Below are positions 13,501-64,000 of a stretch of DNA of 64,000 nucleotides, piece by piece. The first letter of the stretch is position 1. Every line of letters starts with the position of its first letter. Made by a program: the position numbers and the translations under genes. Location of the stretch: NCBI RefSeq assembly GCF_017592335.1, contig NZ_JACNMP010000017.1, positions 1 to 64,000 of the forward strand, read 5' to 3'. The notes below the pieces were generated by a model. It was not told the DNA's origin, ran no database searches, and saw only the letters and a program-made list of their open reading frames with translations. Source of the DNA: Pseudaestuariivita rosea. GTDB taxonomy: Bacteria > Pseudomonadota > Alphaproteobacteria > Rhodobacterales > Rhodobacteraceae.

Positions 13501-13577
13501 GCGGTTGTAGCTCAGTTGGTTAGAGTACCGGCCTGTCACGCCGGGGGTCGCGGGTTCGAGCCCCGTCAACCGCGCCA
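13501..13577 (+). tRNA. tRNA-Asp (GTC), copy 1
   Basis: 77 nt with an encoded CCA end. The acceptor stem is GCGGTTG with CAACCGC, the anticodon stem CCGGC/GCCGG holds the loop CTGTCAC with anticodon GTC, and the T arm is CGGGTTCGAGCCCCG. A second copy follows 58 nt downstream. Confidence 0.97.
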
Positions 13578-13635: not shown

Positions 13636-13712
13636 GCGGTTGTAGCTCAGCTGGTTAGAGTACCGGCCTGTCACGCCGGGGGTCGCGGGTTCGAGCCCCG
13701 TCAACCGCGCCA
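13636..13712 (+). tRNA. tRNA-Asp (GTC), copy 2
   Basis: 77 nt, identical to copy 1 except in the D loop (AGCTGG in place of AGTTGG). The anticodon is GTC and CCA is encoded. The two copies are probably cotranscribed, and the ccmA gene starts 54 nt after this one. Confidence 0.97.
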
Positions 13713-53400: not shown

Positions 53401-53483
53401 CGCCCGGTGGGCACCACCGGGCAGCGCCCGACCGCCCCCCATGGGCGGGCGCTTCACGCCCACCCGCGGACGGTCGCTGCCCT
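53401..53483 (+). repeat. Compound palindromic element, copy 1
   Basis: CGCCCGGTGGGCACCACCGGGC makes a hairpin, followed by a larger stem GCAGCGCCCGACCG... that closes at CGGTCGCTGCCC with an inner hairpin GGGCGGGCG/CGCCC. It lies between the MipA gene and the isovaleryl-CoA dehydrogenase operon. Copies 2 and 3 are at 60166-60245 and 63747-63830. Confidence 0.75.
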
Positions 53484-53585
53484 TTGCACTTCCTTTCATG
53501 ATATAATTTTCAAGGCGGCGTTTGAGGAGGAGGGCCGGTAACCTAACCACACAGGACTCGACAGAATAAATCCTCTGCGCTAAAT

Positions 53586-58503: not shown

Positions 58504-60108
58504 ATGAAACTCACCTCAACCTTTATCCCGACCTCTGATCAGGCCCAACAGAACCGTGCGGCGCATCTGAAGGCGTTGGCGCTGATCGAAGATGCTGCCA
58601 CTCAGGCCGCGGCGGGGGGTGGTCAGCAGGCGCGGGACAGGCACCTAAGCCGGGGCAAGATGTTGCCGCGTGACCGGGTGGCGAATGTGCTGGATCCAGG
58701 GTCGCCATTCCTTGAGGTCGGCGCGACGGCGGCGCATGGGATGTACGACGGGGCCGCCCCCTGCGCGGGCGTCATCGCGGGCGTGGGGCAGGTGCAGGGG
58801 CAGGACGTCATGGTCATCTGCAACGACGCCACCGTCAAGGGCGGCACCTATTATCCGATGACCGTCAAAAAGCACCTACGCGCCCAGGAAATCGCCGAGG
58901 AATGCCATCTGCCCTGCATCTATCTGGTCGACAGCGGCGGTGCGAACCTGCCCAATCAGGATGAGGTCTTTCCCGACCGTGATCACTTTGGCCGCATCTT
59001 CTATAATCAGGCGCGGATGTCGGCCAAGGGCATCCCGCAGATCGCGGTTGTCATGGGGTCGTGTACCGCGGGCGGGGCCTATGTGCCCGCGATGTCGGAT
59101 GTCACGATCATCGTTAAGGAACAGGGCACGATCTTTCTGGCCGGTCCCCCCTTGGTTAAGGCCGCAACGGGCGAGGTCGTGACAGCCGAAGACCTGGGCG
59201 GCGGCGATGTGCACACGCGCCTGTCCGGTGTGGCCGATTATCTGGCCGAAGATGACGCCCATGCGCTGGCTTTGGCACGGCGGGCGGTTGGGTCATTTAA
59301 TCGCGCGAAGCCCTTGACCGTGCAGTGGGAAACGACCCAGGCCCCCGCCTATGACCCTGAGGAATTGCTGGGCGTTGTCCCCGCCGACCTGCGCACGCCC
59401 TATGACATTCGTGAGGTCATCGCGCGGGTGGTCGACGGGTCGCGCTTTGACGAATTCAAGCCCCGGTTTGGCGAAACGCTGGTCACCGGTTTCGCCCATG
59501 TCAACGGCTGCCCCATTGGGATCATCGGCAACAACGGGGTGCTGTTTTCCGAAAGCGCGATCAAGGGCGCGCATTTTGTGGAACTGTGCTCTCAGCGTCG
59601 TATCCCTTTGGTTTTCCTGCAGAATATCACGGGTTTTATGGTTGGACGAAAGTACGAAAACGAAGGTATCGCGCGGCATGGGGCCAAGATGGTGACCGCG
59701 GTCGCCACAACCAGCGTGCCCAAGATCACCATGGTCATCGGCGGATCCTTCGGCGCGGGCAACTACGGGATGTCGGGCCGGGCCTATCAGCCGCGCTTCA
59801 TGTTCAGCTGGCCCAATTCCCGCATCAGCGTGATGGGCGGCGAACAGGCGGCTGGCGTGCTGGCCACCGTCAAGCGGGCGGCGATGGAAAAGGCGGGCGA
59901 AAGCTGGTCCGACCAGGACGAGGCCGACTTCAAACGCCCCACGATTGAGATGTTTGACCGCCAATCCCACCCGCTTTACGCCAGCGCGCGCCTATGGGAC
60001 GACGGCATCATCGACCCCCGCAAAACCCGCGACGTGCTGGCGCTGTCCCTCTCCGCCGCGCTGAACGCACCCATCGAAGAGACACGCTTTGGCGTGTTCA
60101 GGATGTAG
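58504..60108 (+). CDS. liuB: Methylcrotonyl-CoA carboxylase, carboxyltransferase subunit
   Basis: 534 residues. The beta subunit moves the carboxyl group from biotin to 3-methylcrotonyl-CoA. [33 protein letters not shown] at the start, a glycine-rich CoA site with [17 protein letters not shown], and the C-terminal [39 protein letters not shown] are all standard. Its alpha subunit is at 62228 and continues beyond the right edge. Four genes not known for leucine catabolism lie between the two. Confidence 0.9.
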
Positions 60109-62201: not shown

Positions 62202-62227
62202 GTGCCGGGACCTGAGGGAGGGTGACG

Positions 62228-64000
62228 ATGTTTGACAAAATCCTGATTGCGAACCGCGGGGAAATTGCGGTGCGGGTGGCGCGGACGGCGGCGGAGTTGG
62301 GCGTGCGGACGGTGGCGGTGTATTCAGACGCGGACGCGGGTGCGCTGCATGTGCAGGTGGCTGATCAGGCCGTGCATATCGGCGGTGCGGCTCCGTCGGA
62401 CAGCTATCTGCGCGGCGACCGGATCATTCAGGCAGCGCTGGATACCGGCGCGCAGGCGATCCATCCGGGTTATGGTTTTCTGTCGGAAAACCCCGATTTC
62501 GTGCAGGCGGTACAGGACGCAGGCCTGGTCTTTATCGGGCCATCCGCCGATGCGATCCGCGCGATGGGTCTGAAAGATGCCGCCAAAGCGCTGATGGAGC
62601 AGGCGGGCGTGCCCGTGGTGCCGGGTTATCACGGCGACAATCAGGACCCTGAACATCTGTCCGGCGCGGCTGACACGACTGGCTATCCGGTGCTGATCAA
62701 GGCCGTCGCGGGCGGTGGTGGCAAGGGGATGCGCAAAGTGGACCGCCCGGCCGATTTTCAGGCCGCCCTTGCAAGCGCACGGGCCGAGGCCAAGGGTGCC
62801 TTTGGCAACGACGCCGTTCTGATCGAAAAATTTGTCAGCCAGCCCCGCCATATCGAGGTTCAGGTTTTTGGCGATGGGACCCGCGCGGTGCATCTGTTTG
62901 AACGCGACTGTTCGCTGCAGCGCCGCCATCAGAAGGTGATCGAGGAAGCGCCGGCACCCGGCATGACCGACGACATGCGCGCGGCCATGGGTCAGGCGGC
63001 TGTGCGCGCCGCCGAGGCAATCGGTTATTCCGGTGCGGGCACGGTCGAATTCATCGTTGACGGCAGCCAAGGCCTGCGCGCGGATCGGTTTTACTTTATG
63101 GAGATGAACACGCGGTTGCAGGTCGAACACCCCGTGACCGAATATGTCACGGGCGTCGATCTGGTAGCCTGGCAATTGCGCGTGGCGGCAGGGGAACCGT
63201 TGCCGGTCGCGCAGGACGATCTGACGTTGACCGGCCATGCGTTTGAGGCCCGCCTTTATGCCGAGGACGTGCCCAAGGGGTTTCTGCCCGCCACGGGCAC
63301 TCTGGAACATCTGCAATTCCCGCCCGGTGTGCGGGCAGATACCGGGGTGCGGGCGGGCGATGTGATCTCGCCCTATTACGACCCCATGATCGCCAAGCTG
63401 ATCGTCTGGGGCGAAACGCGCGACGTGGCACTGGCAAAGCTGGACCGCGCCCTGTCGCAGACGCAGGTAGGCGGCACGGTGACCAATCTGGCCTTCTTGC
63501 GCGCGCTGACGCGGCATTCGGGTTTCAAGGCGGGGGATGTCGACACCGGGTTGATTGATCGCGATCTTGAGGCGCTGTCGGTGCAGCCCGAACCCTGCAG
63601 CCGCGCGCAATCGCTGGCCGCGTTGGGTGCGATGGGGTTGCATCAGGGCGTGCCAGAGTTTGCAGGCTTTTCGCTGTGGGGGCCTGTGGCGCAAACGGTG
63701 GAATTCATGCGCGGGGATCAGGTGATAAAGGCTCAAATCAAGACGAAGGGCAGCGCCGGCCCGAGGGTGGCGCAAATGCGCCGCCCTGGGGGGCGGGTCG
63801 GCGCAGCCCGGTGTTTCACACCGGGCGGGGTGTTTGAAGTCGAGATCGGTGATGCTTGTCATCGCATTGAAGGATCAGATAACGGCTGGCGCATCGATGG
63901 CCAATCAGTACCTGCCGACGTCATAACCCACGACAGTCACGTCAGTGTCTTCTGGGGCAATGGCTATACCTTCGACCTGATCGACCCCTTGGCCCGCGAC
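62228..64000 (+). CDS. liuD: Methylcrotonyl-CoA carboxylase, biotin carboxylase subunit (runs off right edge)
   Basis: 591 residues are visible with no stop. IANRGEIAVRVARTAAELG is the biotin carboxylase start, GGGGKGMRK the ATP-binding loop, and FYFMEMNTRLQVEHPVTE the catalytic block. The biotinyl domain with its lysine lies beyond the window. Copy 3 of the compound palindrome is read through in frame at 63747-63830, adding about 30 residues rich in Gly and Arg (near residues 507-535) in the linker before the next domain. ATG 62228 follows GAGGGAGGG. Confidence 0.92.
   Translation, partial: MFDKILIANRGEIAVRVARTAAELGVRTVAVYSDADAGALHVQVADQAVHIGGAAPSDSYLRGDRIIQAALDTGAQAIHPGYGFLSENPDFVQAVQDAGLVFIGPSADAIRAMGLKDAAKALMEQAGVPVVPGYHGDNQDPEHLSGAADTTGYPVLIKAVAGGGGKGMRKVDRPADFQAALASARAEAKGAFGNDAVLIEKFVSQPRHIEVQVFGDGTRAVHLFERDCSLQRRHQKVIEEAPAPGMTDDMRAAMGQAAVRAAEAIGYSGAGTVEFIVDGSQGLRADRFYFMEMNTRLQVEHPVTEYVTGVDLVAWQLRVAAGEPLPVAQDDLTLTGHAFEARLYAEDVPKGFLPATGTLEHLQFPPGVRADTGVRAGDVISPYYDPMIAKLIVWGETRDVALAKLDRALSQTQVGGTVTNLAFLRALTRHSGFKAGDVDTGLIDRDLEALSVQPEPCSRAQSLAALGAMGLHQGVPEFAGFSLWGPVAQTVEFMRGDQVIKAQIKTKGSAGPRVAQMRRPGGRVGAARCFTPGGVFEVEIGDACHRIEGSDNGWRIDGQSVPADVITHDSHVSVFWGNGYTFDLIDPLARD
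63747..63830 (-). repeat. Compound palindromic element, copy 3, inside liuD
   Basis: On the minus strand it reads CCCGCCCGGTGTGAAACACC, then a stem GCCGACCCGCC closing at GGCCGGCGCTGCCC. It matches copies 1 and 2 in block order and is oriented opposite to them. The length keeps the liuD frame open. Confidence 0.7.

Follow-up and report, generated by a model that had tools for sequence, protein, structure and literature searches.

The liuD locus of Pseudaestuariivita rosea raises the question of how a palindromic repeat came to be read in frame within a conserved gene, and what has allowed it to stay there. The locus was analyzed in a 64,000-nucleotide stretch of one contig, hereafter the window. 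On its plus strand, a liuD-like gene for the alpha subunit of 3-methylcrotonyl-CoA carboxylase could be identified at 62222..64000 from its open frame, its Pfam domains (Biotin_carb_N, CPSase_L_D2 and Biotin_carb_C) and its best solved relatives, which are MCC alpha subunits, and it extends beyond the window end. The ATG at 62228 is the likelier start of the gene. The frame is open from 62222 to the end of the window and reaches 672 amino acids when the adjoining stretch of the contig is added, with the biotinyl motif EAMKMEH intact, which bears out the preliminary description in its claim that the reading frame stays open across the insert. The product's best fold matches are MCC of human, bacterial and trypanosome origin, together with human PCC. 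The cluster also contains a carboxyltransferase (beta subunit) gene, at 58504..60108 on the plus strand (Pfam Carboxyl_trans, E 6e-155).

The repeat core within liuD is of the B subtype and occupies 63748..63826 on the plus strand, as judged from inverted repeats, fold and subtype. Its 79 bp consist of a large hairpin of 59 nt and a small hairpin of 20 nt, and the whole compound palindrome (63746-63830) is built of the long hairpin, with arms at 63748-63763/63794-63809 and 63760-63774/63777-63791, and of a perfect 9-bp hairpin behind it, with arms at 63806-63814/63818-63826. The copy has an RNA minimum free energy of -63.2 kcal/mol (z -5.58), and none of 200 shuffles was equally stable; the fold z values of the two other copies in the window are -5.22 and -7.94. 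Both of these lie on the minus strand between predicted genes and are ∼80% identical to the liuD copy in blastn within the window. One (L205, 60163..60246, E 1.9e-14) is found downstream of the carboxyltransferase gene and is present at the matching site in the congener G001. For the other (L031, D subtype, 53401..53484, E 8.1e-13) no counterpart was found at the matching place of G001, where the flanks align poorly. Inverted repeats, fold and blastn together confirm that one copy of the palindrome lies within the liuD coding sequence and that two siblings are intergenic, as had been proposed. One more copy is found just past the window, at contig position 68132. The liu cluster on contig C8 holds four copies within 15 kb (at 53.4, 60.2, 63.8 and 68.1 kb), of which three are common to G001, and two of those three keep an identical spacing of 4331 bases.

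Pooled DNA searches identified at least 91 distinct places with the repeat in the P. rosea genome, some of which consist of the small hairpin only (e.g., L178 and L203). Subtypes were counted in the 79 of the 91 copies in which both ends of the core, 60-130 bp long, were recognized. A simple motif assigns 23 of these 79 cores to the B type and 56 to the A or D type, and some D-type copies are 96-99% identical to one another. A long form with an extra hairpin module of ∼30 bp (GTCGTGCT...GGCGTGAC) inside the large hairpin was observed in 20 of the 79 cores (e.g., L206, L189 and L198), and one long-form copy is common to P. rosea and G001. The gene context was determined with a home-made gene caller trained on the 64-kb window alone, which placed 38 of the 91 copies between convergent genes, 35 between codirectional genes and 2 between divergent genes; 10 overlap an ORF and 6 are unclassified. 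Compared with the small intergenic background within the window (gaps: 3 convergent, 4 divergent, 36 codirectional), convergent contexts are in excess (p = 7e-7). Between codirectional genes, the core shows no preferred orientation (15 copies run with the genes and 16 against them). On inspection by eye of codon scores and protein starts, the nine ORF overlaps other than liuD involve either the end of an ORF or a start that seems over-extended; the least clear is L012, where the repeat lies between the ORF start and a signal-peptide-like stretch. The count of copies over the whole genome, other coding regions included, which the preliminary description had suggested, thus yields at least 91 places, ten of them on ORFs, and liuD is the only gene in which a copy was found deep inside. 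A known Rfam RNA family was rejected for the four loci scanned with covariance models (L001, L031, L019 and L005), which gave one sub-threshold match, outside the element.

The repeat appears to extend beyond the core in part of the copies. A consensus shared by the flanks of many copies corresponds to putative terminal inverted repeats (TIRs) that begin with TAGAGCATCGTCCTAAAAACCTG and reach out to 43-46 nt from the core. When scored with this consensus, which was derived from the very same copies, 32 of 87 copies (out of the 91) reached a match of at least 14/22 at one end or both (8 copies at both), compared with 0.1% of 696 control windows. Complementarity between the two flanks of each copy, scored independently of the consensus, was mostly at background level. 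Since about a third of the copies carry TIRs ∼45 nt outside the core, the full unit, as reconstructed from sequence, resembles a MITE of ∼174 bp. The liuD copy scores 9/22, which is background, and is the core alone, without terminal repeats. Allowing up to 3 mismatches, the TIR pattern occurs at 14 places in the P. rosea genome, as seven pairs or single ends. Each of these either coincides with a known copy or belongs to a short pair. Their spacing is that of the repeat rather than of a transposon, and by this spacing none of them brackets a transposase-sized stretch in this genome.

The outer end of the repeat coincides with a pile-up of stop codons. Among 114 gene ends facing a copy (89 copies used), the stop codon of 29 lies at a distance of 39-45 nt from the core, compared with 7 and 3 in the adjoining 7-nt bins; these counts rest on one genome and on the home-made gene caller. 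The peak lies at about the outer end of the TIR. TAG is used by 16 of the 29 stops in the peak vs 20 of the 85 other facing gene ends (p = 0.0025). In P. rosea copies such as L041, L194, L200, L202 and L190, the stop at the outer end of the TIR is often the TAG of TAGAG.... At three sites that are empty in G001, reading by eye placed the stop at the same codon in both species; of these, only L193 falls within the 39-45 nt peak, with L207 at 33 and L189 at 30 nt. No such placement of stop codons could be discerned in either of the two plasmid contexts examined.

Two genomes of the genus were compared: with at most one mismatch, the pattern was found at 88 places in P. rosea vs 8 in G001. Since sequence divergence varies between the two genomes, with matches for 17 of 28 flank pieces that range from 76-100% identity, this is not a comparison of near-identical strains. 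Four copies are common to both genomes (liuD, L013, L205 and L206), and the three sites L207, L193 and L189 are filled in P. rosea and empty in G001. At these aligned empty sites no target-site duplication could be read, as the flanks are too diverged there. Within the family, the repeat was matched in 151 of 295 Rhodobacteraceae genomes at E <= 1e-6, P. rosea included. In a draw across the class, 5 of 289 genomes matched, and four of them, again including P. rosea, belong to Rhodobacteraceae. Plasmid matches were obtained in 55 records, mostly from Phaeobacter and Leisingera and also from Ruegeria and Pseudosulfitobacter, and among the 30 rows listed for these records the copies lie outside the genes given in an incomplete gene table. 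Searches of the open-licence literature brought up no paper naming a comparable repeat in roseobacters.

To place the insert in the protein, an AlphaFold model of the liuD product was used, which has a mean pLDDT of 87.5. Residues 514-533 of the insert have a pLDDT below 50 and lie between strands 500-511 and 536-542. The insert site is thus, according to the model, a predicted disordered turn between beta strands in the domain after the biotin carboxylase part, a region known as the BT domain. The insert had been described as Gly/Arg-rich, which holds, and as part of a linker; the model places it within the turn and not between domains. The P. rosea protein was aligned with homologs from 110 loci, of which 105 (P. 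rosea included) reach residue 640. The insert columns are filled in P. rosea and in the one congener compared, G001, with a net insert of 24 and 25 residues, respectively, and in none of the 103 other aligned homologs, 92 of which have three residues at these columns. The claim of an insertion therefore stands up to comparison with orthologs: the residues are not common to all of them, because 0 of 103 others have the insert, and an old protein feature is ruled out.

An old, variable loop of the enzyme that only resembles the repeat has next to no probability. Loop length does vary elsewhere, the longest other loops at these columns being the 16 residues of three Psychrobacter rows, but these are unrelated in sequence, and at the DNA level the 59-nt large hairpin in liuD shares 96-98% identity with its five closest copies in the P. 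rosea genome, all of B type. The insert might instead have become useful. A role of the loop or of an mRNA hairpin in complex assembly, translation or mRNA stability could be imagined from the strong predicted fold, from the retention of the insert in both congeners and from compensating differences in both stem arms, by which the hairpin potential has been retained; the last of these, however, would equally follow from exchange of a whole hairpin. Between P. rosea and G001, dN/dS is 0.054 for residues 1-450 (the BC part), 0.242 for residues 451-506 and 0.145 for the part after the insert, whereas it is 0.743 for the insert, a value based on ∼28 codons only, aligned across indels. Three one-base differences between the two inserts shift the frame and sum to three, and because of this the residues in the middle of the insert differ between the species. 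Together with the predicted disorder of the turn, this makes a present use of the insert rather improbable. At liuD, selection has filtered for a net multiple of three and a tolerated site. The open frame of the copy is unremarkable by itself, since at least 4 of the 6 frames are open in 81 of the 91 copies. An element built to be coding was ruled out as well, since the core lengths modulo 3 are spread over 26, 30 and 23 of the 79 cores.

The large hairpins of the two liuD copies differ in subtype: the one in G001 measures 62 nt and shares 97% identity with A-type copies. Two independent insertions at the same place in liuD might be suggested by this difference, and by the L016 spot, where P. 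rosea and G001 (G001:C33:291370, L216) carry the repeat in opposite orientations between flanks that are 96-99% identical, so that a spot can be hit twice or become inverted. Against this, both liuD copies share the codon position, the orientation and an uncommon small hairpin, GTGTTTCACAC, which occurs in 8 of the 79 P. rosea cores and, among the 8 pattern places of G001 (at most one mismatch), only in liuD. Two insertions are hence unlikely, and the two genomes are most simply explained by a single insertion into liuD and a later exchange of the large hairpin in one of the two lineages. As to the means of movement, a REP element mobilized by a RAYT (Y1 transposase) would fit the high copy number, the hairpins and the placement downstream of genes, which PMC3733652 reports for REPs. 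A REP-associated transposase was accordingly looked for in the genome and was not found: the Y1_Tnp profile (PF01797) had 0 matches in P. rosea and in G001, though it was detected in 5 of 14 control genomes. Across the family, its presence is not associated with the repeat, which occurs in 15 of 30 genomes with Y1_Tnp vs 136 of 265 without (cross-counted by hand). Neither GTAG (4 of 89 copies vs 15 of 264 control places) nor CGTC (10 of 89 vs 59 of 264) is enriched at the core ends. Movement by a RAYT is very improbable, and absence of the transposase together with the tag counts refutes it for this assembly, short of a RAYT encoded on DNA that the assembly lacks.

We therefore favor, with a probability of roughly 70%, the reading that a non-autonomous, MITE-like repeat of Rhodobacteraceae entered liuD before the two congeners split, and that selection has since acted on the frame and not on the residues. 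One copy, moved by a transposase acting in trans, would have entered the gene either as the core alone or as a full copy later trimmed to its core, and gene conversion from another copy would then have replaced the large hairpin. Selection at liuD would maintain the frame rather than the inserted residues. The insert would persist because only a stop-poor core, without the stop-bearing TIRs, sits in a predicted disordered surface turn and has a net length divisible by three. Elsewhere the repeat would be tolerated DNA at the 3' ends of genes, where it may have a putative effect on mRNA ends.

Rhizobial RIME elements resemble the repeat by description, as alphaproteobacterial intergenic mosaic elements with large palindromes. 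A parallel is also offered by the Rickettsia RPEs, which two articles (PMC2229807, PMC10969869) describe as palindromes of ∼100-150 bp that occur in intergenic regions and also, in frame, within conserved protein-coding genes. As in Rickettsia, an alphaproteobacterial palindrome is here read in frame in a conserved gene. In contrast to the RPEs of R. conorii, nearly half of which lie in ORFs according to the review (PMC2229807/PMC10969869), only 1 of the 91 places here lies well inside a gene. Moreover, core lengths of all three classes modulo 3 occur, and the insert residues differ between congeners instead of forming a conserved peptide. The CGTC tag that PMC3733652 reports for one end of RPEs is the one not enriched here. 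REPs inside genes of several species are also reported (PMC3733652), and in-frame palindromes are noted for ERIC and Yersinia repeats as well (PMC2229807, PMC10969869). The repeat shares with REPs the many hairpins downstream of genes, but it has a longer compound core, and neither GTAG enrichment nor a Y1_Tnp match was found in the genome. Bacterial MITEs such as Correia/NEMIS, RUP and ERIC are described in PMC2229807 as mostly intergenic with occasional in-frame fusions. Like these, the repeat is a short, non-autonomous and mostly intergenic element in many copies (at least 91 places), with putative TIRs starting with TA and no coding capacity of its own seen. It differs from them in that the putative TIRs are degenerate in most copies and that no autonomous partner was found in this genome and no target-site duplication could be read. 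By the features examined (tag, transposase and in-gene frequency), the repeat is neither a GTAG REP nor an RPE, although it works like the latter; its behavior is that of a MITE with an RPE-like accident in a single gene.

In the reviews, most in-frame palindromes are described from Rickettsia and some from other bacteria. The genome studied here lies outside the Rickettsiales and combines a single in-gene copy with ∼90 non-coding siblings, and a congener can be set beside it. The conditions of survival in a gene can thus be addressed: a frame that stays open, a predicted disordered turn and the absence of TIRs. The subtype difference within liuD suggests how dispersed repeats may rewrite a segment of a protein, and the pile-up of stop codons at the edge of the element provides a testable rule for where such repeats settle. 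A tentative further reading, which we consider possible rather than probable, combines the two: a mobile, family-wide palindrome would land its TA-starting ends on the stop codons of neighboring genes, so that insertion would cost nothing, and an escaped core in liuD would have been rewritten in place by hairpin exchange, with frame and fold surviving. If this were true, exchange of whole hairpins between dispersed copies could replace a stretch of protein in one step.

Apart from the repeat, the window also contains two neighboring tRNA-Asp(GTC) genes at 13501-13577 and 13636-13712, which are 98% identical to each other.
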